A DNA stretch of 33,498 bases from Pseudomonadota bacterium. GTDB lineage: Bacteria; Oederibacteriota; Muellerivitia; Muellerivitales; Muellerivitaceae. Position numbers and translations under genes: made by a program. Location: positions 1 through 33,498 of the forward strand of contig JAJPJW010000163.1 in assembly GCA_021324075.1 (NCBI GenBank), given 5' to 3'. Every line of letters starts with the position of its first letter. The first letter of the stretch is position 1. Positions 3,704 through 21,155 of this stretch are shown here, piece by piece. The notes below the pieces were generated by a model. That model ran no database searches. It saw only the letters and a program-made list of their open reading frames with translations, and was not told where the DNA came from.

Positions 3704-3736
3704 TGCAAGCGGGCCTTTGGAAAAGGCCCTTAAAAC

Positions 3737-3770
3737 AAAAAAAGCGGCCCCCGGAGGAAGCCGCTTTTTT
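3737..3770 (-). terminator. Intrinsic terminator of the porin/lipoprotein operon
   Basis: The inverted repeat AAAAAGCGGC / GCCGCTTTTT has an 11-nt loop. It is GC-rich at the base and flanked by A and T tracts, so it could work in both directions. On the minus strand it follows the stop of the lipoprotein gene at 3786 and precedes the lepA promoter, separating the two transcription units. Confidence 0.85.
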
Positions 3771-3785
3771 CATTAAAAAAGAGGA

Positions 3786-4676
3786 TCAATAGAATTGGAC
3801 GTTATCGACCCAGAAATTGGTTTCGGTGGTGACCGGGGCGGGCGTGCCTTGCGCGTTGTTGCTGAACTGCCATTGGATAAAGAGGAATTTGGTCTTATGG
3901 TTGGCCAGTCCCGGTGGGGTAACCGTGCCATAACCCGGTGATGCGAAGGCGGTAAAGGCAAATTGGGTCACGGCCCATTGGTCGACGCCTCCAACGGTGG
4001 TCGAGGTGTTCGGAAGTTTGACCTGGTAATGGTTGAAACAATTGGAGTCGGGAGGGGGGCAGGTTCCACCCGGCCCTCCGTCCGCCGGCAGGGTCTGGTC
4101 GATGGCGATCTGGACCACCCGGTTGGTGTTGTTGTCCGTTACGCTGGCCGAGGCGGAAGACTGGATCTTGTAATAAAACTTGATTCCCGTGAAAGCGGTA
4201 GCGTCGAAATAGGGGTTGGAAGGGGTGGTGACCAGGTGGCAAAGCAGCTGGTCCGATTCGTATTTTCCGGCGGCGATGAGGGTGACGGGGCCGACATGGA
4301 GCGCGTAAGTGCTGGAATCCACCGAATCCGCAACGGTATTGGGAACGACAAAGGTGCTATTGACGGCGTTGGACGCGCCCGGCGGCCCGCCGAATGTCGT
4401 CAGCACCCACACACCGGGTCTGAAGGCGGGGCTGCCGTTCGGATCCAATTCGGTGACAGGGCCGGTGGGGATGACCGGGGGGTATCCCAGCAGGTTGGGA
4501 TTCACGGTGACTGAACCGTTCTCGAAGTTGCTGATATAGTTGGAAGGAAGGGGCGTCGACTGCGCCACCACGGACGAAACGGGCGGTATTTGGTTGGAGC
4601 AGCCTTGGATCAGGACAAGGCCGAGCGTCGCCAGAAAACAACCCGCGCATAAAAAGAATTGAACCCTGCGTTTCAC
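3786..4676 (-). CDS. Lipoprotein with carbohydrate-binding-like beta-sandwich (paralog 3)
   Basis: The 296-aa protein starts with a GTG preceded by a good GGAGG (5 nt spacing). A signal peptide ends in a lipobox-like LIQGC with the lipidated Cys at 26. The mature part begins with FENGSVTVNPNL, has FTGIKFYYK in the middle, and ends with NFWVDNVQFY. This order is typical of jelly-roll carbohydrate-binding domains of the CBM11/CIA30 kind, although no single family is certain. A loop GGTC...NCFNHY holds two cysteines likely to form a disulfide; both are conserved in the paralogs at 4741 and 12951. It is the last gene of the operon, 64 bp after the previous lipoprotein and just before the terminator. 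Probably outer-membrane anchored and facing a glycan ligand (inference). Confidence 0.85.
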   Translation of the reverse strand: MKRRVQFFLCAGCFLATLGLVLIQGCSNQIPPVSSVVAQSTPLPSNYISNFENGSVTVNPNLLGYPPVIPTGPVTELDPNGSPAFRPGVWVLTTFGGPPGASNAVNSTFVVPNTVADSVDSSTYALHVGPVTLIAAGKYESDQLLCHLVTTPSNPYFDATAFTGIKFYYKIQSSASASVTDNNTNRVVQIAIDQTLPADGGPGGTCPPPDSNCFNHYQVKLPNTSTTVGGVDQWAVTQFAFTAFASPGYGTVTPPGLANHKTKFLFIQWQFSNNAQGTPAPVTTETNFWVDNVQFY

Positions 4677-4740
4677 GGCTTCCTCCCCCGCTTTACATCC
4701 GAAGAATGAACTTCACCCATCGTTTTCAATTTTACCACTA

Positions 4741-5574
4741 TCAATAGAACGAAACGTCGGCCAACCAATAGTCAAAGGTGGAAGTTCCGGCGGTGTTATT
4801 CCGGCTTTCCTCCCATTGAAGCCAAAGCATTTGTTGGAGGTTTTGCCCGGCGAAACTGGCGGTTGGCTGTGTGACTACCCCGGCATAAGCTTGTTGAAGG
4901 GAGGTAAAGGGGATGCTGAAAGCCTTCCATTGGCCTCCCGTTCCACCCGTAAGGTCAAAGGTGAAATTGTCGAAACACCCTCCCGCATTCCCCCCCAAGC
5001 AGCCCCCTTGGGGAAGGCCCTGGGTCTGGAAAACCGGAATTGAAAAATCCCTCTTCGTGGTAGTGTCATCGCCGGCGATCTTGAGGTAAAAATTAACGCC
5101 CGAAAAGAAACTTCCATCGTATAGGTTGGTCCCACCTTCCATGGGGACCTCCAATTCAACGGCCGGGTACTGGGCGTTCCCCAAATCGGCGAGGGTTCCG
5201 GAGACGCGGTAGGCGTAGGGAGAGGAGCTGCTGGGCCCCCCTAAAACGGCTTGGGTCACGGAAAAGGAGAGGGCGGCCCCAAAGTTATCGACGGCGGTAA
5301 CCGCGCCACCGACTCTCAAGTTGTAGCTGGGGGGATTGTTCATTTCCATGAGGTTGGGGTTGATCTGGGTAGTGCCGCCGTTGAAGTTACAGACCAAGTT
5401 CTTGTTCGGCACGGTGTTGAGAACCGGATAGGGACCGGGATAGCCCGAATTAAAGGGTGTACTGTTCGTGCAGCCGGCCAACACGGCCAGGCCCAAGCCC
5501 GCCGATCCTAAAACCCACAGGAGAAGGCGGGTTTTTGTGCCCTGCTTCGGTTCGCGGTTAAAATTCAATTTCAT
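4741..5574 (-). CDS. Lipoprotein with carbohydrate-binding-like beta-sandwich (paralog 2)
   Basis: This 277-aa protein has a signal sequence with lipobox VLAGC (Cys35). The mature region opens with CNFNGGTTQINPNL, contains FFSGVNFYLK and ends TFDYWLADVSFY, matching the paralogs at 3786 and 12951. The conserved cysteine loop is present as GGC...GGCFDNF. Between the start and the middle motif it has a longer variable segment rich in Ser, Gly and Pro. The ATG lies inside the last codons of the porin gene at 5558: the two ORFs overlap by 17 nt, which suggests translational coupling. No enzyme motif is visible. A surface lipoprotein that binds glycan and works beside the porins is the most reasonable inference. 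Confidence 0.85.
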   Translation of the reverse strand: MKLNFNREPKQGTKTRLLLWVLGSAGLGLAVLAGCTNSTPFNSGYPGPYPVLNTVPNKNLVCNFNGGTTQINPNLMEMNNPPSYNLRVGGAVTAVDNFGAALSFSVTQAVLGGPSSSSPYAYRVSGTLADLGNAQYPAVELEVPMEGGTNLYDGSFFSGVNFYLKIAGDDTTTKRDFSIPVFQTQGLPQGGCLGGNAGGCFDNFTFDLTGGTGGQWKAFSIPFTSLQQAYAGVVTQPTASFAGQNLQQMLWLQWEESRNNTAGTSTFDYWLADVSFY

Positions 5575-7999
5575 AAGTCAGCCCCATGTATTGGTTATAC
5601 AGCGTGCCAGTGGTTCCGGGGGGTGTCCCGATATAAGGTACCGCATTTCCCCAGGTCATGTCGTAGTCCCCATAAATACTGGAATTGCGGTTCACCTTGA
5701 AAGTGGTCGAAAACCGGTAACTTTGGTTGCTCCCATTGACATTAAAAATCTGGTATTGCCCCAGGTCCTGGTTATTGAAGGTATAGGAATAGCGGGCCAG
5801 GGTACTTCCCTCGTAACCGGCTTCCGATCCCGAGACACTCTGGGTTCCGAAGGAAGCCGCCCCTTCCCACCAGGGAAAGAGCTCCACCCTTACCCCGCCC
5901 AGGATCCAAGCGCTGGTCAGGGTCCCGATGGCGCTGGTGGTCTGCTCGTAGCGGACGTTCGCCCCGATTTCCAGGTCCCCCGTGCCGATACAGGGCCCCA
6001 GGTTGAACGAAGGCCCGGCATTGATGTAGGTGAAATTCCGTTGGGGAGCGGGAACGGCCGCGGTGGCATCCACCGGCGTGTAACCGGACCCGACGTTGTT
6101 CACCACCATGTTACCACTGATTTCTTGGACGAAGTACAGTGAGGCCGGCAGCTTGAGCGCGTCCTTTTCGAGGGCTTTCACGTCCAAGTCGATCCCAAAA
6201 CCCTCGCGGTTGGGGGTCGCCAAGCCGTAGGGGAAGGTGTTGTCCTGGGTCCGGTCATAAAAACTAAAGATGGCGTTGGCCCGGGGAACGTTGGAAAGGA
6301 AAAATTGGGTTCGCAAGGGGGCGGTCATCAGTTCGGGCCCACCGGGAACGGCTGTGTTGACGAACAACACGCCGCCACCCGTGGAAAGCGTCAGGTCGTC
6401 CTGCCGGGTCTGGGCCAGGGGCGAGTAATAATTAGGGCCCACATCCATGAGGCTAAAGGTGACTTTTGAACGACCGAACCTCACATAGGGCCCGCCTAAC
6501 ACCGCGTAATCGGAGATCGTCTTGTTGGCGTCCTGTTCGTCATCCTGGTAGGTGGCATAGGCCCCTTCAAAACTGCCGCCGATGGAAAAACCACCCCCGA
6601 GCCCTAAGTCCACGGAAGGCTTGAAACTGCCCAACTGGTATTGGTGCGCCCAAGTGTTGGGGTTGAATTGGGAATAGGGGGTCCCGGGTGTGTCCGTGTT
6701 CAAGGGTTCGGTCAGCAAGACCCCGTAAACATCCACGGCCAATTGCAGGGAGACGTCTCCGCCCAGGAACCACCGTTTGGATTTCAGCTCGCTGTCGCCC
6801 CCCAGGATCCAGTCGGTGAAGAAATAAGGCCCAAAGTAGCTGCCCCCGTTGGCAATGTCCTTGAAACCGTTCCGGATCATGTCCACCATCAGGGAAACCT
6901 TGAACTGGTCCAGGACGGCGGAGTCGGGCCAGCCCACATCCGTGCCCAGGCGCACACCCCGGAAAGGCCATTTCGGTTCGTTGTTGAGCAGGGTTTCATA
7001 TTTAGTCTCATCATCATAGCGCTGGTACATTTCGGGGTAGTAACGCAGGTCCAAATTGTTGCGGTTCCAGAGGGTCAGGGGCGTATAAGCCTCGTCGAAA
7101 TCCCCGAAAGTGGCGGAGAACCAGGGCGCGTTGAAATCGATGTGGGCCCGGCGGACGAAAAGGTTATCCAGGGCCAGGTTGGAGGACATGTCGGGCGACC
7201 CGTAGCGGACGGTGGCCTCCCAGCGGACTTGCTTGGACACGATTCCCTCGGGCATGAAGTCGATAAAGCCCGTGGCATAGCGGTTGGCCGGCTGGTTCAA
7301 GGCCACCGCGGTGGTGCTGCCGAAATATTGTTGGGACAACCCATAGGCCCGTCCCAAACCGTGCCAGTCAATGGTGGGATATTCGGTGATGCCCTTGAGG
7401 CTTTTCCAAAGGTCGTATTGTTCTCCCTCGGCCTTGGCCACCTTGTTCTCCACGTCGGCTTTTTGGTCCTGCACCAGTTTCAGCTCGAAGTCGTAGGCTT
7501 CCTTGAGGGAACGGAGGTTCCTCTCCATTTCGGCGATCTTCGCGGGGTTGTTCCAAAGCGCCGTGGAGGCCTCCGAAGGAGCCTCGGCAGGGGCCGGAGC
7601 GGGGGCTACGGGAGCGGGTGCCGGGGCGGTCTCGGGAACTGCGGCAGGAGGCGCCGCCGGGGCGGGACTGGGGGCGGAGGCTCCATCGTTGTCGGCCGGG
7701 GGGGGAGGGGGAATATCCGCGTCGGATTGGGCAAGGATGATTTCCTTATAGTTCTTTTCCGCCTTGAAAATCCTCTGGGCCACTTCAAAACGGGTCAGGG
7801 GGCCCCGGGAGGCGCCGGCAGGCAGGAGGCCCGTGGATTCCAACTCGAATAATTGCCTGTAAGTGGCATCGCCCGACGGGACCACGGCAAAAGGATCGGC
7901 GGCCGCGAATGCGGCAACCGTCCCCAGGAGGAGCGCAAAGCCCAGCATCCAAGCCGGGGCAGGGCGGGCGGCGAAGGTTTTCAGGTTAGAATTTGACAT
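5558..7999 (-). CDS. SLH-type porin, outer-membrane beta-barrel (paralog C)
   Basis: The track gives 816 aa from a TTG at 8008. I prefer the ATG three codons on (7999), giving 813 aa. After a signal peptide ending AAFAAA, a segment of about 40 residues (TYRQLFELESTGLLP...PLTRFEVAQRIFKAE) resembles one S-layer-homology motif. It is followed by a Pro/Ala-rich linker (about 104-150), a charged coiled coil (about 155-205) and about 600 residues of amphipathic strands ending in EIEF. Known SLH porins use the SLH part to hold the wall and the barrel to cross the outer membrane. GDFDEAYTPLTLWN and TWAHQYQLGSF are shared with the 753-aa neighbour. The ATG overlaps the end of that neighbour by 14 nt, and the stop overlaps the following lipoprotein by 17 nt. 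The substrate is unknown. Confidence 0.83.
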   Translation of the reverse strand: MSNSNLKTFAARPAPAWMLGFALLLGTVAAFAAADPFAVVPSGDATYRQLFELESTGLLPAGASRGPLTRFEVAQRIFKAEKNYKEIILAQSDADIPPPPPADNDGASAPSPAPAAPPAAVPETAPAPAPVAPAPAPAEAPSEASTALWNNPAKIAEMERNLRSLKEAYDFELKLVQDQKADVENKVAKAEGEQYDLWKSLKGITEYPTIDWHGLGRAYGLSQQYFGSTTAVALNQPANRYATGFIDFMPEGIVSKQVRWEATVRYGSPDMSSNLALDNLFVRRAHIDFNAPWFSATFGDFDEAYTPLTLWNRNNLDLRYYPEMYQRYDDETKYETLLNNEPKWPFRGVRLGTDVGWPDSAVLDQFKVSLMVDMIRNGFKDIANGGSYFGPYFFTDWILGGDSELKSKRWFLGGDVSLQLAVDVYGVLLTEPLNTDTPGTPYSQFNPNTWAHQYQLGSFKPSVDLGLGGGFSIGGSFEGAYATYQDDEQDANKTISDYAVLGGPYVRFGRSKVTFSLMDVGPNYYSPLAQTRQDDLTLSTGGGVLFVNTAVPGGPELMTAPLRTQFFLSNVPRANAIFSFYDRTQDNTFPYGLATPNREGFGIDLDVKALEKDALKLPASLYFVQEISGNMVVNNVGSGYTPVDATAAVPAPQRNFTYINAGPSFNLGPCIGTGDLEIGANVRYEQTTSAIGTLTSAWILGGVRVELFPWWEGAASFGTQSVSGSEAGYEGSTLARYSYTFNNQDLGQYQIFNVNGSNQSYRFSTTFKVNRNSSIYGDYDMTWGNAVPYIGTPPGTTGTLYNQYMGLTYEIEF

Positions 8000-10247
8000 A
8001 ATATCCAAATCTCCAAACCTCGTCGTAATGGGTATAAGCGGGGAAATCGCTCCAGTTGTACTGGGTCAGGAAGTAATCCGCCCGGAAATTGGCCATGTCG
8101 TTCAGGGGAAGTTTGAGGCCGAGGGCGAAGGTCTGCCGGGTGAGGTTCAGCGGCTCGTAGGAATATTGTCCCAAGGTGGACGTGTCCAACATGAAGGAAT
8201 ATTCACCGTAGGTGGGCGGATTGCCCTGCCCCAGCACATATTCGCTGCCGGTGGACTGGGTTTGCTCAAAGGCCGCGGACCAGACCACCGTGTTCAGGAA
8301 ATGGGCCGGGATGTTGAAATCACAGGCTGCGATCAAGGTATCCACGGTGAAGGGGGCCGCTCCCAGGCCCAAGTCCGTTTCCTGGTGCTTGAGGTCGAAT
8401 TGAATGTCATAAGTGCGTCCGGGCAGGTCAAGGGCCTTGGCGAAATCGACCGTCAGGGCGCCTTCGTAACCCGTAAAACTCCGGGCGGCGGCGGTGTTGG
8501 TGTTGCTGTCGACGGCCGCCACTCCCGTTCCGTCCGGCTTGACGACGAAATCCGGCTGGATTTCCTGGATTGACTCGTAGGAAAACTGGGGTTTGAACCA
8601 GCCCTTCTCCCCGATCTCGCCTGAAAAACCGAAGACCACACCTTGGCGGTCAGGCGTGGAATCCCCATAGGGAAGGGCGTTTTCGGCCAGACGGTCATAG
8701 GGGGCGAAGGAAGGCCGGGTGACGCTCTGAAAGGGCGACCCGTTGAGGTAACCGGGCAGGTTGTCGTCCAGGCCGTTCATATTGGTGCTCAAGTAAAGGG
8801 AGGAGCCCGTGCCGGGGGTGTACCGGTTGGTCTGGGCCCCGGGTGAGTAGAAATAGGGTCCGATATCGAGGTATTTTCCGGTGAAATGGATCCCTTCAAT
8901 ATTCAACGATCCATTGGCTAAGAGGGCCCAATCGGTGAAGACCCTCAAGGGGTTCATCTGGTCGTCATTGTATTGGCTGCCCGCATTTTCCACCGAGGCG
9001 GTCACGTTCACCTTGTCGGCAAAGGGCAAAGTGACCCGGCTGGCCACGCTGCCGATCTCATATTGATGGGCCCAACTGTTCGAATAATAGGAAAGGTAAG
9101 GCACGTTGGCGCTGCTGGGGTCCTCCCACAAAAGCAGGCCCGTCCCGGTGACTTCCAGGTTGTCGCCCAGGAGGCTCAGCGAACCCTGGGTTCCGCCGAA
9201 GTAGCTTCCAAAGGTGAAATTGGTGGCGGTGTTCATGGGCCCGGCCATGGCCTGCAGCTTGGCGTTGCTCAAGAAGGCATCCTTCCCGAAAGCCACGGTC
9301 GTGGCCGCCTGGAAACCCCGCAAATGCTCATCCGTGCCGTGGTCCATATAGACCCATTCCTCCACGTCCTTGCGCGTGCGGTTGAAAGAAGTTGGTTCGA
9401 TGAAGGTATAAACGGGAACCTCGTAGTTCCAAAGGGTCAGGGGGGTATAGCTCTTGAAGAAGTCCCCGGCGTTCAGGGTGGCGACATCATTCACGTTCGT
9501 CAGCTCCAGCCACCGCAACTGGAAATGCTGCAGGATCGGGTCCTGGTAGTACATCCCGATGGAGCGTAGGGCCCTGATGCGGGCGTCGAATAAAAGGAAG
9601 GGCACGGGAATGCTGCGAAGGTCCATCTCCATGAATATGGCGGCGTTGTAATCCATGGGGAGATAGCCGGGGAAATTCCCGAACCCGCGGTAGTTGGACA
9701 TGTATCCCCTGGAAAACCCGCCTATATCCATGCCTGTGCGCTTCAGGTAGGCCTGCTGCAGGGCGGCGAAAACCTCGTCGCGGTCCTTGACGTCCTGGAT
9801 GCGCGCCTCCAGCTTGTCCACGTCGATCCCCATGGCCGACAGCTCCCCGCGGAATTCCTCCACCAGGTCCGTCAGGCTTTTGGAGGCCTGGGGAGCGGAG
9901 GCCGCCGTACCGGGAAGGTCCGGAGCCCCGGGAAGGGCGGGCGTGCCGGGAGGAGGCAGTTCGGGTGGAGGCAGGTTCACCCCGCCGCCCGGAAGGGGCG
10001 GGGGAAGCTCGGCTTGGGCGTAAAAACGCTGGCCCGCTTGTTCGGTCAATTGGGCCACTTCCAGGTTGGTCATCTGGGCAATGGGTTTCTCCGGGGCGGC
10101 CACCAGTCCCGAGGAGACCAGGTCCGCCAGCTCCTGGTTGACCCAGGCGTCCCGGTCGGTCGAAACCAAACGGCCATGGCCGGCGTAGGCCGGCAAGGCT
10201 CCCACGAGGAGCAAGGCCACGATCCATTGTTGGCTGCGAAGTTTCAT
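7986..10247 (-). CDS. SLH-type porin, outer-membrane beta-barrel (paralog B)
   Basis: This 753-aa protein starts at ATG 10247 behind AAGGA. The signal peptide ends PAYA-G (about residue 22). An SLH-like stretch follows (DAWVNQELADLVSSGLV...MTNLEVAQLTEQA), then a Pro/Gly-rich linker (about 80-118), a coiled coil (about 122-170) and a long barrel region ending FGYYVKF with a terminal Phe, the usual outer-membrane sorting signature. It shares SYTPLTLWN, SWAHQYEIGS, FYSPGAQT and NALPYGDSTPDRQG with the 813-aa protein, so the two are clear paralogs. It lies 13 bp after the 871-aa porin gene, and its own stop lies inside the start of the next gene. General diffusion or glycan-specific uptake are both possible. 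Confidence 0.83.
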   Translation of the reverse strand: MKLRSQQWIVALLLVGALPAYAGHGRLVSTDRDAWVNQELADLVSSGLVAAPEKPIAQMTNLEVAQLTEQAGQRFYAQAELPPPLPGGGVNLPPPELPPPGTPALPGAPDLPGTAASAPQASKSLTDLVEEFRGELSAMGIDVDKLEARIQDVKDRDEVFAALQQAYLKRTGMDIGGFSRGYMSNYRGFGNFPGYLPMDYNAAIFMEMDLRSIPVPFLLFDARIRALRSIGMYYQDPILQHFQLRWLELTNVNDVATLNAGDFFKSYTPLTLWNYEVPVYTFIEPTSFNRTRKDVEEWVYMDHGTDEHLRGFQAATTVAFGKDAFLSNAKLQAMAGPMNTATNFTFGSYFGGTQGSLSLLGDNLEVTGTGLLLWEDPSSANVPYLSYYSNSWAHQYEIGSVASRVTLPFADKVNVTASVENAGSQYNDDQMNPLRVFTDWALLANGSLNIEGIHFTGKYLDIGPYFYSPGAQTNRYTPGTGSSLYLSTNMNGLDDNLPGYLNGSPFQSVTRPSFAPYDRLAENALPYGDSTPDRQGVVFGFSGEIGEKGWFKPQFSYESIQEIQPDFVVKPDGTGVAAVDSNTNTAAARSFTGYEGALTVDFAKALDLPGRTYDIQFDLKHQETDLGLGAAPFTVDTLIAACDFNIPAHFLNTVVWSAAFEQTQSTGSEYVLGQGNPPTYGEYSFMLDTSTLGQYSYEPLNLTRQTFALGLKLPLNDMANFRADYFLTQYNWSDFPAYTHYDEVWRFGYYVKF

Positions 10248-10260
10248 TTTGTCCTTAGCC

Positions 10261-12876
10261 TTAGAAAAGGAACCACATACGGCTGTAATACTGGTCGCCC
10301 GAGTAGTCGTTTTTCGGCACGTCGGCGTCGGTGAAGTCGATGTGCTTGTAGCGGAATTCCATCTTGCCCCCGCACCAGGGGATGTCCCAGGCCAGGCCCA
10401 AACCGTAGGCGTTGGTTTGGTAGTCCACGTTGGGGTAGGTATAGGCCGACTTCCAGGTTTCCAAGCCGATGTCCCCGCTCAAATCCAGGTTCTTGACGAC
10501 ATTGACCATGACGGCCCAGTCGAAAACCTGCTGTTCGAAAAGGTTCGGGATATTCTGCAGGTTGACCGTCTGTCCCGGACTGGTGGTGACGCTGGCCAGG
10601 GCGGGATTGGAGGAAACACCCGATACTTGGTTGTCCGCCATGAAAAAGGAGCCGTCCAGCGGGGTGGAAAGGCCGATCCATTGGTTCAGCTTTAACTTCG
10701 CTGTCAGGGCGATGTAATTATAGGTTTTCAAATTGTCCAGATTGACATAGACGTTATGGCCGACCATGCCGGTTACGGGTGCGTTGGCCGCTGTATAGGT
10801 AGTCGGCATGCCATTGGCTCCCAGGATCGGCACGATCAGCGGAAGCCGTTCCGAGGTCAACCGGAATTGGTATCGGGGGTCGTAAAGGGTGGTGTCCCCA
10901 TCGTTGCGCGCGGTTTCGATATTGTTGGCATAGGCTTGGCGCAGGGGATAATCGGGGCTGCTGTAGCCCCCCCAAAGGTTGAGGCCCCAAAGGCCTTCGT
11001 CATCGGGATAATAGAAGGAAATTTCGTTGAAGGGCTCGATGGTGTAATAACCCGTGTTGCTGTTCCCCACCGGCCCGGCCTGCTCCGCGGTGAATTCCGT
11101 CTTTTGGGCCAAGTCGAAATTGATGATGAAACTGTCGAGGAAACTCGGCCAATCCTTCATGAAGTCCTGCTTGCGGCCGTCCCAGCCCAGGTTCACCCTC
11201 CAGCCGTAGCGGTCGCTCACCAGGTTGTCCACCTCGCCGATGGCTCCATAGGCGTCGTTGAAGTCGTTGGGCGACTTGGTGGACAGGTCGCTCACCCCGT
11301 ACTGCTCGAAATGCACGCCCGCCATCAGGACCTTGCTCTGGAAATTGGCGTAATTGTCGCTGATCGCGAAACCGTAAACCGTGAAGGGGTAGAAACTGAG
11401 GGCGGCCTGTCCTGCCCCTGCTTCGATCGGTTGGGGATTGGGGTCCAGGGCCCCCGTATAAAGATTGGTGATGAACTCGCCGGTATAGAGGTGGGAAAAC
11501 CCGCCCTCGATGTCGAAGAAGACGGGCTTGAGGTTGAGGTTGATGTCGGCGGCGTAGTCCTGCATATCCAGTTGGGGGACCTGGTTGAACCCGAACTCAT
11601 CGTTGACCCATTGGGCGGAGAGGGAGGTCCTGATCGTCTGGCTCCAGGGCATGTCGATCTTTGCCGCTTCTTCCCAGCGCTGGGTCTGGGTGGGGCTGGT
11701 GCCCATGCGCCCGACGAGAACGTGCACCCTTGTATCGCCCAGGCCCGGCAGGTCGTGGCCCACGGCATACATGCCGTCGAAAACCCGGTCGCTGGTGGAC
11801 TGGACGTTCGCGGAGACGGTGGAAACGAAGCCCACGCTGTTCATGTAGTCGTCCCAGTTCTTGGCGTCCTTGTCGGTGGAGAAGGCCTTGATGTCGAAGG
11901 GGTCCTCGAAGCGTTTCAGGGAATAGGGGGCCACGCCGCGGGTGAAATCCCCCAGGGTGGTGTCGGACTGGTAAGCTTCCACCGCGAAGGTGGTTTCCCA
12001 TTTGCCCAGGTCCCCGTAAACGTCCAAGGTCAGGCTGGGGGATCCCACGTAAATCGAGGCGGGGGAGGCCAGGGCGCCGGTGGAGCCGCCCGGGGAATCG
12101 GAGAAGTTGGAATAAGGGATAAAGGCTCCGAAACCGATGGAATAAACCCCCGCACCTCCGATATCGCCCCACATCCCTAACCAGATGGTCTGCTCGAGCT
12201 TGCTCACATTGTTGACCAGCGGACCCGAACCCGAAACGGGCCCGGAAACGTTGAATTGCTCGAAACGCGTATCGGTATTGGTGTTCAGGTTGGGGTCTCC
12301 GACGTCCTTCTTGGCCTTGTTCTTGACCGCGACGACCTCGTCCTCGATTTTGCGCAGGTTGTCCAGTTCCTTTTGCTCGTCCGTAATCCGCTGGTCGTAA
12401 AGGCTCAGGCGGGACTTGAGCATGGCGTCTTCTTCCTTGAGTTCTTTCAGCAGTTCGTTGATTTCATTCAGGGTGGCGGCATTGGCCGGAGGCAGGAAGG
12501 GCGTGGGCGCGGGGGCGGCGGCCGTCGGCAGGGCCGGGGGCAGCGAGATTTCGTTGGTTACCGGGGCCGCCACCGGAAGGGGGATGGGCGTGGCGGTGGG
12601 AAGGGGGCGGTAGAGTTCGGGGGCCGTCAGGTGGGCCTTGGCTTTCTCCGTATAAAACGCCAGCTCCAGGCGGGTGACATACTTCCCTTCATCCAAAACC
12701 TGCTTGTCCTGGGGTTCCAAATAACCTTCATCCCCCAGTCTCTTCACGCGCTGGTAAAGGGGCGAACTGGAGTCCAACTCTTCATAAGGATTGGCCGAAA
12801 CCGGGGGCGCCCCGGACCCTAGGAAAAGGGCCGCCAAGGCGGCGGCGACCAGGAAGATTTTGGATCGGAAGCTCAA
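10261..12876 (-). CDS. SLH-type porin, outer-membrane beta-barrel (paralog A)
   Basis: At 871 aa this is the largest of the three. The start is TTG with GAGG 6 nt upstream, and the signal peptide ends PPVSA-N (about 28). An SLH-like segment (SPLYQRVKRLGDEGYLEPQ...YVTRLELAFYTEKA) precedes a Pro/Ala-rich linker (88-130) and a strongly charged coiled coil (133-190, NEINELLKELKEEDAMLK). The barrel region runs to the end and closes with YSRMWFLF. The loop motif that reads YTPLTLWN in the paralogs is diverged here (GDFTRGVAPYSLKRF), so this copy is the most distant. It lies 74 bp after the first lipoprotein gene of the operon. Coiled coil plus SLH suggests a barrel held away from the wall by a rod, as in OmpM-like proteins. 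Confidence 0.82.
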   Translation of the reverse strand: MSFRSKIFLVAAALAALFLGSGAPPVSANPYEELDSSSPLYQRVKRLGDEGYLEPQDKQVLDEGKYVTRLELAFYTEKAKAHLTAPELYRPLPTATPIPLPVAAPVTNEISLPPALPTAAAPAPTPFLPPANAATLNEINELLKELKEEDAMLKSRLSLYDQRITDEQKELDNLRKIEDEVVAVKNKAKKDVGDPNLNTNTDTRFEQFNVSGPVSGSGPLVNNVSKLEQTIWLGMWGDIGGAGVYSIGFGAFIPYSNFSDSPGGSTGALASPASIYVGSPSLTLDVYGDLGKWETTFAVEAYQSDTTLGDFTRGVAPYSLKRFEDPFDIKAFSTDKDAKNWDDYMNSVGFVSTVSANVQSTSDRVFDGMYAVGHDLPGLGDTRVHVLVGRMGTSPTQTQRWEEAAKIDMPWSQTIRTSLSAQWVNDEFGFNQVPQLDMQDYAADINLNLKPVFFDIEGGFSHLYTGEFITNLYTGALDPNPQPIEAGAGQAALSFYPFTVYGFAISDNYANFQSKVLMAGVHFEQYGVSDLSTKSPNDFNDAYGAIGEVDNLVSDRYGWRVNLGWDGRKQDFMKDWPSFLDSFIINFDLAQKTEFTAEQAGPVGNSNTGYYTIEPFNEISFYYPDDEGLWGLNLWGGYSSPDYPLRQAYANNIETARNDGDTTLYDPRYQFRLTSERLPLIVPILGANGMPTTYTAANAPVTGMVGHNVYVNLDNLKTYNYIALTAKLKLNQWIGLSTPLDGSFFMADNQVSGVSSNPALASVTTSPGQTVNLQNIPNLFEQQVFDWAVMVNVVKNLDLSGDIGLETWKSAYTYPNVDYQTNAYGLGLAWDIPWCGGKMEFRYKHIDFTDADVPKNDYSGDQYYSRMWFLF

Positions 12877-12950
12877 ACAAGACCTCGGTCAATGTTTTCG
12901 AAAGAATTAACAAATCCTCTAACTTCGGAAAAACAGGTCGGCGCAGATCC

Positions 12951-13721
12951 TCAGAAAAACTCGACGTCGTCCACCCAATAATCGATGTTATAGGTCCCAG
13001 CGACGTTGTTGCCGCTGTGGGTCCAGGCGAAATTGATGAATTCGGACAGGTGGTCGGTCAAATCCGGCGGGATGACCGCCCCGCCCCAGCCTTCGCGCTT
13101 GATGTCGGTGAAGACCAGTGTCATTTTCACCCAGTCGCCCGAGGAGGGCAGGTCGACGCCGAAATGGTCGTAGCAATTGTTGCTGCAGGTGCCGCCCTGG
13201 TCGGAGGGGAGGGTGGCCGCCATGCCGATGCCGAAACGGCGCTTGACCGCCGTGTCATCCGAAGGGCATTTATAGTAAAAAAACATGCCCGTGAAATTGC
13301 TGGCGTCGTAAAAACCCGTGTCCTTCAAGTGGCACTGGAGCTGGAACCCGGGGTAGCTTTTGTCACCCTTGTCGGTGAGCTTGCCGTAGATATGGACGGC
13401 CTTGGCGTCCCCATGGGCGCCGCCATCGGCAATGAGGTCGGAATTGATGGTGCCTCCCCCTCCGGAGGAAATGGCCATCCATTGGCCGCCCGAGGCCCCG
13501 AAGAGCTTGGGATTCACATTTTTGGAACCGTTGTTGAAGTCGCTGACCATGCATTGGTCTGCGGGGACCTGCACCTTGGCCTTGGCCACTTCGGGGTTGT
13601 GGAGCCCCGCCGCAAGGGAGGATTCCTTGGAGCCTTCATTGTAGAAAACCGCGCCGCAACCGGCGAGGAGGGAGATCGCGGCGGCGCCCAGCCAGAATGA
13701 AAATCCGCGGAAGCGGACCAT
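12951..13721 (-). CDS. Lipoprotein with carbohydrate-binding-like beta-sandwich (paralog 1), first gene of operon
   Basis: The track starts at a GTG (13727), but the ATG at 13721 has AAGGGG 5 nt upstream and is the likely start, giving 256 aa. The signal peptide has lipobox LLAGC with Cys22. The mature protein opens SDFNNGSKNVNPKLFG, contains FTGMFFYYK, the cysteine loop GGTCSNNCYDHF and the ending YNIDYWVDDVEFF. These align with the lipoproteins at 3786 and 4741 and define a small local family. The W-V-D-D-V ending is common in galactose-binding-like jelly rolls, where a residue near it often binds calcium. It is the first gene of the operon. A ligand-binding role outside the outer membrane is inferred. 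Confidence 0.85.
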   Translation of the reverse strand: MVRFRGFSFWLGAAAISLLAGCGAVFYNEGSKESSLAAGLHNPEVAKAKVQVPADQCMVSDFNNGSKNVNPKLFGASGGQWMAISSGGGGTINSDLIADGGAHGDAKAVHIYGKLTDKGDKSYPGFQLQCHLKDTGFYDASNFTGMFFYYKCPSDDTAVKRRFGIGMAATLPSDQGGTCSNNCYDHFGVDLPSSGDWVKMTLVFTDIKREGWGGAVIPPDLTDHLSEFINFAWTHSGNNVAGTYNIDYWVDDVEFF

Positions 13722-13931: not shown

Positions 13932-16900
13932 TTATTCTTGGTCGTCGTTTTCTTTCGGGTCCGAGCCGTTGCCCTTGTCGTTTTCCAAGTCCCTCACCGA
14001 GGCGCCCGAACTCTTCTTCATGTAGGCGAAATCGAAAACCCTCCAGGACTGGCCGGGTTTTTCCGCCACGACGGCGGCCATGAACCGGTTGTCGCGGTCC
14101 GGCTGGTTTTCCTTGGGGATGTTCACATAGAGGCTCTTCACGCGCAGGGTGTCCCCCGCGGGCAGGTCGAAGGGCCCTACCGTGGCCAGGTCGGCGTAAT
14201 AATCTTTGGAGGCGTCGATTTGGTGCAGCACGACCCCCTTCAGGTCCTGGGGCGTGGGATTGCGGATTTCAACCTGCAGGGGGACCGAGACTCCCCCCGG
14301 CACCTTCTTGGGAGCCGTCAAGGTGACCTCCAGGGGCGACAAACCCTCGGTTTGCCGGAGCATGGTGAAGGCCTTGCCGCCCGCCACCGTCCATTCCATG
14401 GCGCTGTAGGGGCCCTTCACCCCGTAAACGATGCGGTAGAGGTCGTGCCAGAACATGCCGATTTGGGCGTTCACCGGGAACCATTGGTGCAGGATGTCCA
14501 CTTCGCGGTTGTAAAGCTCCTGGGGCCCGGGCGGATCGACGGATTTCTGGACCCAGTTGAAGTCCACCATTTCGCCGGGCGCGAACATGCCATTGCCCCG
14601 CGCCAGGTACTCGGGCCATTGGGTTTTCATCGAAGCCAGGGTGCTCCGGTCGCTCTGGTAAAGCATGATTTGGTTGTAGCCGATGCCCGCGTCGATGAGC
14701 ATGGCCGGGTCCTGCCCGTGTTCATGGCCCATCTTCCAGCCCAGGGTGAAGGTGAAGACGGGTTTGGAGATCTTGGCCTCCTCCAGGATGCCCCTGACGA
14801 TGGTGGCCACCTTGTGGGCCCGCCACCAGTCGAACAAGGCCACGACCGGGGAATCTTTCTTGCGGCCCGTCTCGACCGTCTTGGCCAGCCAGTGGATGCG
14901 CTCCTCCTTGGAAAGGGACCAGAAGTTGTCCGGTCCGGGCACGTTCATGTCGTTCACGAACTCGTCGACCATTTCGTAGCCCGCATCCCCCGTGCGGATG
15001 TAATCCAGCCCCACCATGTCCACGTTGGGGTCCTGGTCCATTTCCTTGAGGAAACCGATGACGTCCTGCCGGCGCTTGGGGTCCTCCACCGAAATAAACC
15101 GGTCCTGGACCACTTCGTCGCTGTCCGGGTCGTATCCCAATGCGAACTGGTAGGGAACCTGGTTCCACGCGTCGCCCATGACCTTAAAGGTGGTCATATA
15201 GGCCCCAAACTTGAGGCCGACGGCGTGGGCGGCTTTGGCGTATTTGCGGCCCACTTCCATATCGCCGCGGTTGAAGGGAAAATCCCGCGGGCTGAAATGG
15301 TCCCAGGCGGAGGTCTGGGCCATGAGGAAGCAATAGGTGTCGGCGCCCATAAACTTGGCCCAGTCCAGGGCGTTGGCGGCCCTTAAGGAATCGCTGCCGT
15401 CGAGGGCCGGCACCGCCCCGCCGATCAGCCGCTTGCCGCCTTCCATGGTCAGGGCCGCATAGCCGGCGGGCATGCCGTTGGGCCTCAGGGGCGGGATCGT
15501 GAAGGCGGACTCGAAGTCCTTCGCGGTTTCCCAGGTGGGGGAAGTCACCACCACTTCGGCCACATAGGTGCCCACGGGGGGGTTATAGGGGATGGGCCAA
15601 TTGCCGATGAACTTCCCGTGCGGGACGTCCTTCTTCAGGCTCAGCTTGGTCCTTCCGTCCACCAGTGTGACGGGTTTTCCGTCCTGGAACACCTCCACGG
15701 TGGCGTGCATGTCGGGGAAGGAGCCTATTTCCTCGTGGTTGATGGTCACCTCGAAGGGCACCAGCTCGTACCTCAGGAAATTGCGGGTGGGCATGACGGC
15801 GATCACATCCGGGATCATCTGCGCGACGGTGGGCGACATGGCCCCGAATTTTTTGGATTCGGGGGAAAGGGTGGCCTTGGCGATCAAGACCCCGCAGGCC
15901 AGGAAGGCGGCGATAAGGGCATACCGCAGGCCCTTCTGGCCGTGGAACCAATGGAGGAGCGGCTGGAAATTGAAACGGGGGCGCGGGAAGGTCCAGGGCC
16001 GGTGCTGGGGCCTGAGGACCGGGGTTTCGGCCGGCGGGGCCGCCGGCGGCAGGGGTTCCAGGAAGGCCCGGTGGACTTCCTCATGGGAGGGCTCGGCAAT
16101 GGCCTGCTCCTGGACGGGGGTCTCAAGGGGGGCTTTCGGCGGTTCGGCCACCGGGGTGGAAAGCACCGGGGGAAGGATAACCGGGGTTTCGGGTACGGAT
16201 TCCAAAACCGGCCGGATCTCTTCGGCCTTTTCTTCCACTTGGGCGGGGCCTTCGATTTCCCGTATCTCTTCCTGGGACAAAACCGACGCCGGTGGGATGG
16301 ATTGGGAAAGGGTGGTTTCCGAATAGGACACCGTAGGGGCTTCCACGGGCGGTTCCACACTCGGGATGGCCAGCCCTTCCTCAATCTCTTCGATGGAAGC
16401 TTCCATGGGATCGGCGGTTTCCGCCTCGGTGGCCCCGGTTTGGGACGCGAGGACGGGGTTTACGGGATTTTCAGTGGCGGCCGGTTCGGGCCGGACCCTT
16501 TCCACCTGCTCTTGGGTAAGGGAGGCGGTTTCCTCCATCGAGGGCCAGACGGGCACCTCCGGTTCCATGGCCCGAGGTGCGGCCGGGGCGGAATGGATCT
16601 GCGAAAGAAGCCTCTCCTCCAGGCTGCCGCTCTGGATTTTCGGGCGCCCTTTAAAGATGGAGCCGGCCCCCTTTCCCAGGGATTGCAGGCTCCGGCCCAT
16701 ACCGCCGAAAACGGCCCGGGCCACCGAACCGGCCAGGGCTGAGGCCGCGGAGGCTTGGCCCGCACCGGCCTTCAAAAGGTCCGCGGTCTTTTCCTTCAGC
16801 GCATTGAAGTTGGCGGCGATGTTGAGCGAGGCGGGTTCCACGGGCTTGGGCAGGCGGAAAGGTTCGAGCTCGGCGCGGCCTTCCTGGTTCATCACCTCGG

Positions 16901-18347
16901 GCGGCAGGGGCGTGGTGCGGGTGAGGCGTACCACCGTCTCCACGTGGTAGGTCTGGGGGAACATGTCCAGGGGCTGGGCCCAATCCACCGCGTAACCGTG
17001 TTTGGCCAGGAGCGCCAGGTCCCGCGCCAGGGTGGCGGGGTCGCAGGAAACATAGACGAGGCGTTCGGGGTAGAAAGCCGCCAGCCGCGCCAGAACCTCG
17101 GGCAGCACACCCTTGCGCGGCGGGTCCATAATGGCCGCGTCGATCTGGGCAAGGCCCTTCTCCTTGAGGCCCAGCAGGATCTGGGGGACGTCCCCTTCCA
17201 GGTAGTCGATGTTGGCACGGCGGTTGAGGTCGGCATTGAAGCGCGCGTCGTCCACCGCCGCCCCCACTTCCTCCACACCCACGACGTAGTCGGCATTTTG
17301 GGATACGGCCATGGCCAGCGTACCGATGCCGCTGTAGAGGTCCAGCACCGTTCCCCATTGCTTCTTGTGCTTGGGCTCGCCCAGGGCCTCCCGCACCAGC
17401 GCGTGCAGGATATCGGCCTGGGCCGTGTTGACCTGGAGGAAGGATTTGAGGGAGACCTTCAGCCTCAGCCCGTCGATCTCCTCGTAATAATGGTCGCGGC
17501 CCGCCAGCAGTTTGGTCGTGGGCCCGAAGACGATGTTCGTGCGCGAGGGGTTGATGTTTTGCAGGACGCCCGCCAGGCCCGGCACCTCGGCCATGAGTTC
17601 CCGGGCGATGCGGGGCAAAATTTCCTCGAAGCTTTCGGGCAGCAGGGTTGGCTTTTGCACCCGTTCCTCGGGCGTTTCGGTACGGGTCACGAAGGCCAGC
17701 AGGGCCTCGCCGGTCTTCAGTCCCCTCCGCACGGTGAGGTGCCTTAAGAAACCCTCGTGTTTCTTTTCCTGGTAGGGCGTCAGGCCCGACCTTTCGATCT
17801 TTTGGAGGACTTTTTGGAGCAGGTCGTTGATCTCGTCCGCCTGGATGGGGCAGCTGTGGTAGGGCACCAGGTGGTGGGAGCGGGGTTCGTAGATGCCGGT
17901 GACGAAATGGCCGTCCCTCATGGAAAGCACCGGCATGGCCTTGTTGCGATAGGCATAGGCCGCGGGCGAAGGCAGGCAGGGTTGCACGGTGACGTTGTCG
18001 AGCTTTCCGATGCGCTTCAGGGAATCCACCACGAACTGGCGCTTGGTCTGGAGTTGGCGCGGATAGCTCAAGTGCTGCCACTGGCAGCCGCCGCATTCCT
18101 CGAAGATGCCGCAGTTGGGCGTGACACGGTCGGGTGAGGGCCGCAGGATGGAGAGGATCTCGCCGGTGGCGTAATGGTCCTTGACCTGGGTCACCTTGAG
18201 GCGCACCCGCTCGCCGGGAAGCCCGCCGGGAACGAAAAGGGCGAAGTCCTGGAACCGGCCCACGGAATCGCCTCCGAAGGCCAGTGAAGTGATTTCAATT
18301 TCGATTTGGTCCCCGTACTTGACGGGTTTGATGATTTTGGTGCTCAT
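13932..18347 (-). CDS. rlmD: 23S rRNA (uracil-5-)-methyltransferase joined to a membrane-anchored glycoside-hydrolase-like protein
   Basis: One open frame of 1,471 aa from ATG 18347; the track start at 18458 adds 37 unlikely residues. Residues 1-478 are a complete RumA/RlmD enzyme. It has a TRAM domain, Fe-S cysteines CGIFEECGGC (79, 85, 88) with YHSC (166), FLQVNTAQAD, SAM motif LDLYSGIGT, DPPRKG, nucleophile VSCDP (Cys435) and HVETVVRL (Glu470). It would methylate U to m5U in 23S rRNA. Then come about 100 residues with an Ala/Gly-rich helix, a Pro/Glu-rich linker (about 590-780) and one membrane helix (about 806-823). Outside the membrane follow an Ig-like domain, a TIM-barrel-like domain with VGLDYIRTGD (about 1112) resembling hypothetical glycosyl hydrolases of the DUF4015/GHL type, and a C-terminal beta domain. 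A cytoplasmic rRNA enzyme fused to a periplasmic hydrolase is odd. An overlapping two-gene reading with a split at 16892 is equally credible (see findings). Confidence 0.85.
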   Translation of the reverse strand: MSTKIIKPVKYGDQIEIEITSLAFGGDSVGRFQDFALFVPGGLPGERVRLKVTQVKDHYATGEILSILRPSPDRVTPNCGIFEECGGCQWQHLSYPRQLQTKRQFVVDSLKRIGKLDNVTVQPCLPSPAAYAYRNKAMPVLSMRDGHFVTGIYEPRSHHLVPYHSCPIQADEINDLLQKVLQKIERSGLTPYQEKKHEGFLRHLTVRRGLKTGEALLAFVTRTETPEERVQKPTLLPESFEEILPRIARELMAEVPGLAGVLQNINPSRTNIVFGPTTKLLAGRDHYYEEIDGLRLKVSLKSFLQVNTAQADILHALVREALGEPKHKKQWGTVLDLYSGIGTLAMAVSQNADYVVGVEEVGAAVDDARFNADLNRRANIDYLEGDVPQILLGLKEKGLAQIDAAIMDPPRKGVLPEVLARLAAFYPERLVYVSCDPATLARDLALLAKHGYAVDWAQPLDMFPQTYHVETVVRLTRTTPLPPEVMNQEGRAELEPFRLPKPVEPASLNIAANFNALKEKTADLLKAGAGQASAASALAGSVARAVFGGMGRSLQSLGKGAGSIFKGRPKIQSGSLEERLLSQIHSAPAAPRAMEPEVPVWPSMEETASLTQEQVERVRPEPAATENPVNPVLASQTGATEAETADPMEASIEEIEEGLAIPSVEPPVEAPTVSYSETTLSQSIPPASVLSQEEIREIEGPAQVEEKAEEIRPVLESVPETPVILPPVLSTPVAEPPKAPLETPVQEQAIAEPSHEEVHRAFLEPLPPAAPPAETPVLRPQHRPWTFPRPRFNFQPLLHWFHGQKGLRYALIAAFLACGVLIAKATLSPESKKFGAMSPTVAQMIPDVIAVMPTRNFLRYELVPFEVTINHEEIGSFPDMHATVEVFQDGKPVTLVDGRTKLSLKKDVPHGKFIGNWPIPYNPPVGTYVAEVVVTSPTWETAKDFESAFTIPPLRPNGMPAGYAALTMEGGKRLIGGAVPALDGSDSLRAANALDWAKFMGADTYCFLMAQTSAWDHFSPRDFPFNRGDMEVGRKYAKAAHAVGLKFGAYMTTFKVMGDAWNQVPYQFALGYDPDSDEVVQDRFISVEDPKRRQDVIGFLKEMDQDPNVDMVGLDYIRTGDAGYEMVDEFVNDMNVPGPDNFWSLSKEERIHWLAKTVETGRKKDSPVVALFDWWRAHKVATIVRGILEEAKISKPVFTFTLGWKMGHEHGQDPAMLIDAGIGYNQIMLYQSDRSTLASMKTQWPEYLARGNGMFAPGEMVDFNWVQKSVDPPGPQELYNREVDILHQWFPVNAQIGMFWHDLYRIVYGVKGPYSAMEWTVAGGKAFTMLRQTEGLSPLEVTLTAPKKVPGGVSVPLQVEIRNPTPQDLKGVVLHQIDASKDYYADLATVGPFDLPAGDTLRVKSLYVNIPKENQPDRDNRFMAAVVAEKPGQSWRVFDFAYMKKSSGASVRDLENDKGNGSDPKENDDQE

Positions 18348-18791
18348 CCCGGACCTTTGGAACAACAACCCATCGTGGTCATCCTTCGGACGCCGGTGGA
18401 TGACCCGTGGCTGGAAATCATTTTTTGGTGGATCACCGCTTTTTGGGGGACAGTCCAAAAGAACGCGGTTGGAATTTTCACGTGGAAGAGCCGACGGCTC
18501 ATAAAGCTTGCGACCTCAGTAGTGTTGTCCCGCCGCTCACGCGCCGGGGTTTGATGTTGTTCCGCCTTTATTTTAACGGTTTTCCGGGGCAGAGCAAAAG
18601 GTTTCCCGTGTTATACTGGCGCCCGCCTGAACCTCAAAACCCGTATCGACCCAGGGACTATGAAGACCTTTTCCCTAACCCTCATTAACCCAAACCGACC
18701 CAGAACTCGCGATCAAGTTTATGGGCTAAATCGCGGTAATAATACCCGGTCCCTTGGGTCGGGAAATTTCCGGCTTATTCCCCAAAATTTC
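18348..18791. other. Divergent intergenic region
   Basis: This is the leader region between the minus-strand methyltransferase ORF and the plus-strand outer-membrane protein. It holds an AAAGG-type ribosome site before ATG 18347 and an extended -10 for the plus gene at 18609-18617. An in-frame upstream extension (18660-18791) looks non-coding, because a signal peptide starts only at 18792. I see no convincing -35/-10 pair for the minus gene. Confidence 0.6.
18609..18617 (+). promoter_or_regulatory. Extended -10 promoter element
   Basis: TGTTATACT matches an extended -10 (TGnTATAAT). No TTGACA-like -35 lies at the right distance. Transcription would start near 18624, about 170 nt before the chosen start codon. 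Confidence 0.4.
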
Positions 18792-20264
18792 ATGACCAAG
18801 GGGCTAATCTTGCTCCGAATACTACTCTTGGTGGGGCTCCTCCTCGCCCCCGCCGCAGGGTGGGCGTCGGAGACCCGGGTGGACGCCACCGGGGGCCTGA
18901 CCACCATCCTGGACGACGAAACCACCAACCTGGACCTCTTTTTGGACGGCAACCCCGCCGGCCTGGTTCTCCTGAACACCAAGGACCGCTTCGACCTGGC
19001 CGGGGAATGGTCCTATTCGGACCAGGAAGGCCCCTGGGGGTCCAACAAACAGCAGGTTTTCACCACCATCCCCCGCTATACGGACTCCCCCCTTAAATAT
19101 GAAGGCCTGATGCTCTTCCCCGACCCCCATTGGGCCCTCCAGGTCACCGGGGATACCCTCATCACCCAGGGGGTGCCTTCAGCCAACTATTCGAATGAGA
19201 CCGAAACCGACTCCCAATACCGGGGCATGGTGCGGGTGGCCTACGCCCTTCCCTTTGGGGCCCTGGGGCTGGAAATCATGGATACGGAAAGCGACACCGC
19301 CTATGACGCCGGTCTTTTCAACCCCTATGTGGGCATCACTTCCGGCTCGGCGGCCCAGAACCAGGTCTTCCTCAAATCCGGTTTCATCACCACCTTCCCC
19401 GGCCCCACCTCCCCCCAGGACCCCCGCTGGCAGATGGGCGGCTATTTCGAGACCCAGGTGGGCTCTTCCGACCTCGACAAAAACTTGAATGTGGCCTATT
19501 CGACCCCCCCTCCCTTTACCGTAAGCCAGACCAACACCACCAGCGATTTCACCGATTGGGGCGCCGAACTGCTTTACGAGCTGCCTTCGGTGGCCAAGCT
19601 TCGCTTCACCGCCTCCATGATCAATTCGGACAACAATTTTGAGCAGTCCGTCCCCTTCACCTCCGCTTATTTCGGCAACCTGGTCCATTACCACTTGGCC
19701 CAATACCAGGCCATGACCGTGGGGGGCGCCTTCAAGGTCACCCTGCCCTTCTCGGAAACGGAAAACCTCAAACTGGGGGGGATGGTGAACGGCTTTTTCT
19801 TCAACCAGGACATCCTGCGGGTGGGCGGCACGGTTTCCAGCAACAACCAGAGGGAACAGGTGGCCACCGCTTTCGGGGTGGGACTGGAAAACCCCAAGGA
19901 ATACACCATGGGGCTCCAATGGAAAAGCCTGAGCTATACCAAGGCCAGCGACGTGATCAACATCGGGGGCACCACCTCCTCGGTCTCCGGCACGGGCAAT
20001 TCCTATTACCAACTGGCCTTTGGGGGCGAGAAGTGGGTTTCCTCCACCTGGGCTTTCCGCCTGGGGATCGTGGGGGAAATCGACGACTACGTGGACACGT
20101 CCATCAGCGCCTTGACCACCACCATCGACGCCGGTACGGGAGTCGAGGAGGCCTTCGGCCGGATGGACCTGCGTTTTTGGCTGGGACAATCCAGCGACAT
20201 GGGCAACCAGGCCAATACGATGGGCCTGATCGGCGCCGAAGTTTCAACGACGCTCTTCCTCTAA
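18792..20264 (+). CDS. Secreted outer-membrane beta-barrel protein, unknown family
   Basis: The track ORF starts at 18660 with 44 residues that do not look like an export signal. From the ATG at 18792 the protein reads MTKGLILLRILLLVGLLLAPAAGWA-SETR, a clean signal peptide, giving 490 aa. The rest is rich in alternating hydrophobic strands separated by turns (for example VRVAYALPFGALGLEI, GAFKVTLPF, KLGGMVNGFFF, AFRLGIVGEI), as expected of a transmembrane barrel. The last residue is Leu rather than Phe. I do not recognise the family; resemblance to FadL/PorV-type barrels is general only. No strong Shine-Dalgarno is visible before 18792. It is the only plus-strand gene in the middle of the window and converges on the gene at 20382. 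Confidence 0.78.
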   Translation: MTKGLILLRILLLVGLLLAPAAGWASETRVDATGGLTTILDDETTNLDLFLDGNPAGLVLLNTKDRFDLAGEWSYSDQEGPWGSNKQQVFTTIPRYTDSPLKYEGLMLFPDPHWALQVTGDTLITQGVPSANYSNETETDSQYRGMVRVAYALPFGALGLEIMDTESDTAYDAGLFNPYVGITSGSAAQNQVFLKSGFITTFPGPTSPQDPRWQMGGYFETQVGSSDLDKNLNVAYSTPPPFTVSQTNTTSDFTDWGAELLYELPSVAKLRFTASMINSDNNFEQSVPFTSAYFGNLVHYHLAQYQAMTVGGAFKVTLPFSETENLKLGGMVNGFFFNQDILRVGGTVSSNNQREQVATAFGVGLENPKEYTMGLQWKSLSYTKASDVINIGGTTSSVSGTGNSYYQLAFGGEKWVSSTWAFRLGIVGEIDDYVDTSISALTTTIDAGTGVEEAFGRMDLRFWLGQSSDMGNQANTMGLIGAEVSTTLFL

Positions 20265-20381: not shown

Positions 20382-21155
20382 TTAGCGGCGCGGAGTGGGG
20401 GAAGCAACAGGAGCGGCGGCCCGGGGGGCCGAGGCATCCCCTTCGAGACGGATGTTGTCCAGGTAGACGACCACCGGCTGGGTGGCTCCCGTGGTTTCCA
20501 CCCAAAACCGGAGGGACCGGATGTTGCTCAGGTCCAGGCGGTTTTTCGCGATCTCCTCCAAGGGAATGGAAATGTTCGTGACCTTCTTGGGCGTCAGGGA
20601 TTCGGTGTGGTCGAAAAGATAGGCGTGGCTGTCGCCCACTTCCACGTGGCAGGTCACCGGCTGGGCTTGGTCGTTGAAGACGTCCATTTTGAAGTCGGCG
20701 TATTCCTCCCACTCGAAGACCTTGAGGGGGGTGACCGAATTGACGTCCAGGACCATTTCGGGCTGCCATGTAACGGAGGGCGTCGGAACGGGCTCCGGCG
20801 TGGTATTGCTGGCCGCCTGGGAAAGGGTGGCGGGCGCCGAAACCTGGGTTGAAGCGGCGGCGATCGGGGTTGCGGGATAAACAGGGGTGGCGTTGGGCAT
20901 GAACTGGCCCGCCAGCAGGAAGGTGGCCTTGGCGCAGGTCTTGCCATGGGTCTTGTTCTCGGTGGAAGGTTCCACCTTCACGTAACCGCCCGTAGTCCAA
21001 TCGAAATCATCGTTGGGGTTCTCAAAATCCGTGATCATCTGGGTCTTGGCCGTGGTTTTACGCTTGAACCCGTGGGTGAAGCCCAATCCCGCCAGCACGG
21101 CGTAAATGAGGCCGATGGCGAGGAGGATGCCGAGGATTTGCATAAATCTTCCCAT
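20382..21155 (-). CDS. Membrane-anchored carbohydrate-binding-like protein
   Basis: This 257-aa protein has one N-terminal membrane helix (about 5-25, ILGILLAIGLIYAVLAGL) and no lipobox, so it is probably a signal-anchored protein with its main domain in the periplasm. The domain opens ITDFENPNDDFDW, is interrupted by a Pro/Thr/Ala-rich insertion (about 85-128), and closes NIRSLRFWVETTG...VVVYLDNIRLEG. The D-F-E-N start and the Y-L-D-N-I-R-L end are typical of CBM11/CIA30-like jelly rolls. It is more distant from the three operon lipoproteins and lacks their cysteine loop. A GGA precedes ATG 21155 by 6 nt, and a good promoter is present at 21197. A heptamer repeat abuts its stop codon. The ligand is unknown. 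Confidence 0.75.
   Translation of the reverse strand: MGRFMQILGILLAIGLIYAVLAGLGFTHGFKRKTTAKTQMITDFENPNDDFDWTTGGYVKVEPSTENKTHGKTCAKATFLLAGQFMPNATPVYPATPIAAASTQVSAPATLSQAASNTTPEPVPTPSVTWQPEMVLDVNSVTPLKVFEWEEYADFKMDVFNDQAQPVTCHVEVGDSHAYLFDHTESLTPKKVTNISIPLEEIAKNRLDLSNIRSLRFWVETTGATQPVVVYLDNIRLEGDASAPRAAAPVASPTPRR

Follow-up and report, generated by a model that had tools for sequence, protein, structure and literature searches.

A conserved operon of OmpM-like stalked porins and CBM11-like lipoproteins as a candidate module for TonB-independent glycan uptake across the outer membrane

A six-gene operon in the 33,498-nt stretch of DNA analysed here (the window) probably encodes a TonB-independent outer-membrane module for capture and diffusion of glycans that combines stalked, OmpM-like porins with CBM11-like lipoproteins. 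We put the probability of this reading at about 0.55. The passage of oligosaccharides through the outer membrane of non-Bacteroidota cellulose degraders is an open question, and cellodextrin import in Fibrobacter is described as unsolved. The operon supplies named candidate genes for outer-membrane oligosaccharide import. In the ORF list its six ORFs all lie on the minus strand, and they are transcribed in the order LpA, PorA, PorB, PorC, LpB, LpC. The features are the following:

12951..13721, minus strand: LpA, first gene, lipoprotein with a predicted CBM11-like beta-sandwich; lipobox LLAGC; homologous to LpB and LpC
10261..12876, minus strand: PorA, putative outer-membrane porin of 871 aa, from its N-terminal and full-length profiles, stalk and terminal F
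7986..10247, minus strand: PorB, putative outer-membrane porin of 753 aa, from a phylum-wide N-terminal profile; conserved family-wide
5558..7999, minus strand: PorC, putative outer-membrane porin, from its N-terminal profile and homology to PorB
4741..5574, minus strand: LpB, lipoprotein sibling, from homology to the other window lipoproteins
3786..4676, minus strand: LpC, lipoprotein sibling and last gene, GTG start, from homology to the other window lipoproteins
about 3734..3774, minus strand: intrinsic terminator at the operon end, GCGGC...GCCGC between A/T tracts, from folding

The genes are tightly packed. Gaps of 74 nt (12877-12950), 13 nt and 64 nt (4677-4740) separate LpA from PorA, PorA from PorB and LpB from LpC, and overlaps of 14 nt and 17 nt join PorB to PorC and PorC to LpB. 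LpA starts with ATG at 13721 (alternative GTG at 13727) and PorC with ATG at 7999 (alternative TTG at 8008). The hairpin at 3734-3774, which was overlooked by a simple terminator scan, folds with a dG of -24.4 kcal/mol (z -5.5), and none of 200 shuffled sequences is equally stable. Terminator-like sites within the genes are rarer than chance in the simple scan (12 against 17.2 in shuffles), and neither of the two gaps folded, 12877-12950 and 4677-4740, gives a stable structure or does better than shuffled sequence. The initial annotation had described six genes on a single strand with these gaps and overlaps and one terminator at the end, which agrees exactly with the ORFs and the folding; no terminator inside the operon is supported either, as it had stated. 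It had named separate promoters for each gene as an argument against one operon. No such promoters are supported by a consensus scan limited to sigma-70, which found no sigma-70-like site on the operon strand; this negative says little, since the organism's own promoters may depart from that consensus.

The three lipoproteins are mutually homologous in BLASTP (E 1e-25 and 5e-13), as expected from their earlier description as siblings. PorB and PorC are also homologous (E 6e-30). PorA has no relation to PorC by BLASTP, and a profile search relates it to PorB and PorC mainly via the N-terminal domain and the stalk.

The gene order is strongly conserved. The complete gene order, with rlmD upstream and lepA downstream, is found again in several genera of one family, f1 (loci L029, L032, L034, L036, L037 and L038/L039), some copies being cut by contig ends or lacking one flank, and L037 has two lipoproteins instead of three. 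The same order is found in a sister family, f2 (L040), and a related form occurs phylum-wide, so that the conserved synteny proposed earlier as a check is clearly present. Chance grouping of the six genes is ruled out by this recurrence in other genomes. Of the 12 copies read, 11 have an overlap of exactly 17 nt between PorC and LpB, a pattern suggestive of translational coupling. A paralogous cluster, Lp-A-B-C-Lp, is present in the window genome, split over two contigs (C212 and C42) such that residues 1-223 of its PorB lie on one contig and residues 224-741 on the other, and in four further genomes (G001, G002, G003 and G005). In other families of the phylum a secreted protein of about 245 aa and one to four lipoproteins, of CBM11/CIA30-like type, come after an A-B pair; the secreted protein in L067 is a CBM9 (E 4e-19). 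A scan of viral contigs found no further relatives. An exported protein of 220-254 aa without a Pfam match follows LpB in paralogous clusters (L027 4717-5433, L031 333-1097, L033 3793-4458).

Several neighbouring genes have unusual features of their own. The gene at 13932-18458 (minus strand) encodes a 1508-aa RlmD-type rRNA methyltransferase (TRAM, tRNA_U5-meth_tr) fused to a membrane segment and a C-terminal domain of about 600 aa, and relatives keep this long fusion (1240-1509 aa) ahead of their operon copies. Its C-terminal part has no Pfam match, and its best PDB match is a GH29 with E 0.28. A 534-aa exported protein at 18660-20264 (plus strand), possibly a barrel, has no Pfam family. The membrane protein at 20382-22382 (minus strand) has a faint Agarase_CBM match (E 0.008) and adjoins a LacI-family regulator; in L040 a protein that appears LacI-like by eye lies directly upstream of the operon. 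The gene at 22721-31399 (minus strand) encodes a protein of 2892 aa that is glycine-rich and repetitive and has no Pfam family; its C-terminus looks autotransporter-like by eye.

The relatives of the operon point to glycans. The paralogue in the window genome sits after a GH44 and a sugar-ABC binding protein, the paralogue of G005 has the same GH44 linkage, and that of G003 adjoins GH29 and GH31. Elsewhere in the phylum the A-B pair is found near GH9, or near a GH74-type BNR protein, GH2 and SBP_bac_8. Within 10 kb of porin loci GH9 was observed 6 times against 0.74 expected and GH44 3 times against 0.47 expected, although the significance of both enrichments is overstated because related genomes were counted as independent. 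The mixture of GH44, GH74-type, GH31, GH29 and GH2 enzymes around the relatives presumably recalls xyloglucan loci. The abundance of GH9, GH44 and CBM11 would agree with an assignment of the phylum to Goldbacteria/FCPU426 (PMC7031533), and if that assignment holds, these neighbourhoods suit a phylum rich in CBM11 and cellulases. No CAZyme lies beside the window operon. The window copy, at its fixed rlmD-lepA site, is perhaps a general-purpose version of the paralogue in CAZyme loci.

PorA is composed of a signal peptide, a divergent SLH-like domain, a proline-rich linker, a coiled-coil-like stalk of about 60 aa and a putative beta-barrel of about 670 aa. PorB and PorC have the same architecture, with putative barrels of about 580 and 600 aa. 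The N-terminal profiles of PorA and PorC have the SLH domain of OmpM (8bz2) as best PDB match (E 2.2e-7 and 1.3e-5), and the full-length PorA profile matches 8bys (E 8.7e-8). A phylum-wide N-terminal PorB profile matches the SLH domain of Sap (3pyw, E 5.4e-4) and OmpM (8bz2, E 7.1e-4). The phylum-wide PorB profile also retrieves canonical SLH porins in other phyla with genome-level E values of about 1e-9 to 1e-12, and these porins score with Pfam SLH at E 8e-12 and 9e-13. Pfam SLH has no match across the window genome; in 44 genomes of the phylum it finds a single one, which lies in a different protein. The initial annotation of SLH porins is thus right only in the sense of a divergent SLH-like domain detected by profiles, not of a canonical SLH. 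A TR-E motif is partly retained in the window porins (TRLE, TRFE, TNLE), but the tryptophan and the GYPDG stretch of the SLH pocket are mostly lost, and because of this loss ligand binding cannot be assumed.

A simple composition rule found the stalk feature of OmpM-type porins, here a helical stretch of some 45-65 aa free of proline, in most homologues of PorA, PorB and PorC, and a terminal F is present in all of them except one. Neither the window porins nor their homologues match a plug or barrel family of Pfam; one PorA relative has a weak match to the SlpA barrel, below cut-off (E 9e-4). A structure model of PorB from four sequences reached a pLDDT of 37.5, too poor for a fold search. With the PorB model unreliable, both the barrel fold and the number of strands are inferred, the fold from protein size, the signal peptide, the terminal F and the relationships seen with profiles.

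A lipobox is present in LpA, LpB and LpC. Six related sequences went into an AlphaFold (AF2) model of LpA, which shows a beta-sandwich core at a pLDDT of about 75. For this moderate-confidence model the top Foldseek match is the CBM11 of Clostridium thermocellum (CtCBM11, 6r31; E 7.2e-8, TM (target) 0.67, probability 1.0), followed by a second CBM11 entry (1v0a, E 1.0e-7) and then by CBM30, CIA30 and other CBM folds. None of the window lipoproteins has a Pfam family above cut-off, LpC giving a sub-threshold CBM_6 match (E 0.07), and their relatives within the phylum pass or approach the CBM_11 and CIA30 cut-offs. The full lipoprotein alignment retrieved no match from the PDB, and NCBIfam yielded no informative family. 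A CBM11-like fold would mean that LpA could bind a glycan, not that binding occurs.

A distant counterpart was found outside the phylum. The PorB profile matches a barrel in two genomes of one genus, G132 (E 4.5e-30) and G272 (E 2.5e-21). In G132 the locus (L094) has the order GH5 (390 aa), CBM30 protein (267 aa, E 5.4e-18), three barrels, lipoprotein and GH18:

L094 5055-13666, plus strand: Fibrobacter-like CBM30-barrel-barrel-barrel-lipoprotein locus between GH5 and GH18

The three barrels (848, 759 and 716 aa) match, in this order, the profiles PorA-like (E 1.8e-20), PorB (4.6e-38) and PorB (2.6e-18). L094 thus shares with the window operon the order with related barrels and is flanked by GH5 and GH18. 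It differs in that its barrels have no visible SLH-like N-terminus and a CBM30 protein replaces the CBM11-like lipoprotein. In F. succinogenes, Fisuc_1523 is a GH5 of 42 kDa, Fisuc_1525 a CBM30 protein of 29.2 kDa and Fisuc_1530 a GH18, and published work lists the latter two among cellulose-binding or envelope proteins (PMC4619616, PMC4668043). The published tags leave four genes between Fisuc_1525 and Fisuc_1530, which matches the layout of L094. Judged by sizes, families and spacing, L094 is apparently the Fisuc_1525-1530 region. No discussion of the genes in between was found in the open-licence literature searched. L094 is a candidate locus for the import of cellodextrins, a step that is still unsolved.

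In the proposed mechanism, which would resemble that of SusCD but do without TonB energy, LpA, LpB and LpC on the outer membrane would bind beta-glucan chains or oligosaccharides and pass them to the stalked barrels of PorA, PorB and PorC, with which they may form complexes. Oligosaccharides would then diffuse through the barrels into the periplasm, where ABC systems would complete the uptake. The SLH-like domain and coiled-coil stalk of each porin would extend to the peptidoglycan and, by analogy with OmpM, may hold the membrane to it. An extension of this mechanism, which we consider unlikely, is that PorA, PorB and PorC form an A-B-C heterotrimer in which three unlike SLH domains make one wall-binding prism fed by the CBM11-like lipoproteins. 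It would be a TonB-independent, wall-anchored glycan importer common to the phylum and Fibrobacter, and the missing outer-membrane cellodextrin step. The fixed order, the conserved overlaps and the similar stalk lengths are weakly compatible with such a heterotrimer.

For the uptake reading we count the conserved order, the CAZyme-linked paralogues, the fold of LpA, L094, the OmpM- and Sap-like N-termini, and the lack of SusD and plug matches. Against it we count the window copy without CAZymes, the lipoproteins and barrels without Pfam match above cut-off, the failure of the PorB model, an enrichment that ignores kinship, the presence of 8 TonB-plug proteins in the window genome, and the loss of most residues of the SLH pocket. 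A rival reading is a general housekeeping role, in which the porins are OmpM-like porins and outer-membrane tethers, and the CBM-like lipoproteins merely help the barrels to assemble or attach to peptidoglycan or surface polysaccharide of the cell itself, with no specific glycan uptake. In its favour, the window copy keeps its place between rlmD and lepA in the whole family without CAZymes, the porin N-termini resemble OmpM, and OmpM itself is an outer-membrane tether and general porin (PMC10628300). We regard this role as possible but rather doubtful, since the paralogues and phylum relatives sit in CAZyme loci, the genome already has 6 OmpA-domain proteins, the SLH ligand residues are degenerate, and several porins with a CBM family in each locus are more than a tether needs.

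An adhesion machine, with lipoproteins holding the cells to plant fibre and barrels as anchors instead of transport pores, has in its favour the reported cellulose-binding or envelope nature of Fisuc_1525 and Fisuc_1530, the apparent counterparts in L094 (PMC4619616, PMC4668043). Three different barrels of 580-670 aa in one fixed order would be unnecessary for this, and relatives are linked to ABC sugar-binding genes, which makes adhesion improbable. Assembly of a surface layer, or export of polysaccharide or enzymes through the barrels, is very improbable: the SLH relatedness of the porins and the sub-threshold SlpA match of one PorA relative would fit, but no gene for an S-layer subunit, a glycosyltransferase or an export ATPase lies beside the operon copies read, and the linked CAZyme and SBP genes speak for uptake. 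The initial annotation had offered TonB-independent glycan uptake and surface-layer assembly side by side. The uptake reading is partly supported by the CAZyme neighbourhoods of the relatives and the CBM11-like fold, while the surface-layer alternative gains nothing.

The operon consists of parts of known kinds, OmpM-like porins and CBM-like lipoproteins, in a combination for which no description was found in the open-licence literature searched. As in SusCD of the Bacteroidota, an outer-membrane barrel, putative here, and lipoproteins predicted to bind glycans share one operon, with glycoside hydrolases near the relatives. Unlike SusCD, the porins have no plug match, the window genome has no match to SusD (PF07980), and LpA resembles CBM11 and not the TPR fold of SusD. 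Membership in SusCD is ruled out by the lack of a plug domain in the porins and of SusD in the genome. The 8 TonB-plug proteins imply that TonB-dependent import exists in this organism. With the CBM11, CBM30 and CIA30 domains the operon shares the best matches of the LpA model and the relatives that pass or approach the CBM_11 and CIA30 cut-offs, but the window proteins are stand-alone lipoproteins below every Pfam cut-off and not domains of enzymes.

The porins are closest in plan to OmpM of Veillonella and SlpA of Deinococcus, with a signal peptide, one N-terminal SLH-type domain, which is divergent here, a coiled-coil stalk and a C-terminal barrel, which is putative here. They differ from both in that three different porins are combined with lipoproteins, in SLH-like domains beyond the reach of Pfam, and in barrels of about 580-670 aa. 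They also differ from OmpM in their lineage, which has OmpA-domain proteins and LolA; LolA is weak as a lineage marker because its model also matches Deinobacterium and archaea among the controls. OmpM was reported to be absent from Gracilicutes and confined to Terrabacteria (PMC10628300), and the stalked, OmpM-like porins of the present lineage, with its OmpA-domain proteins and its LolA, bear on this claim.
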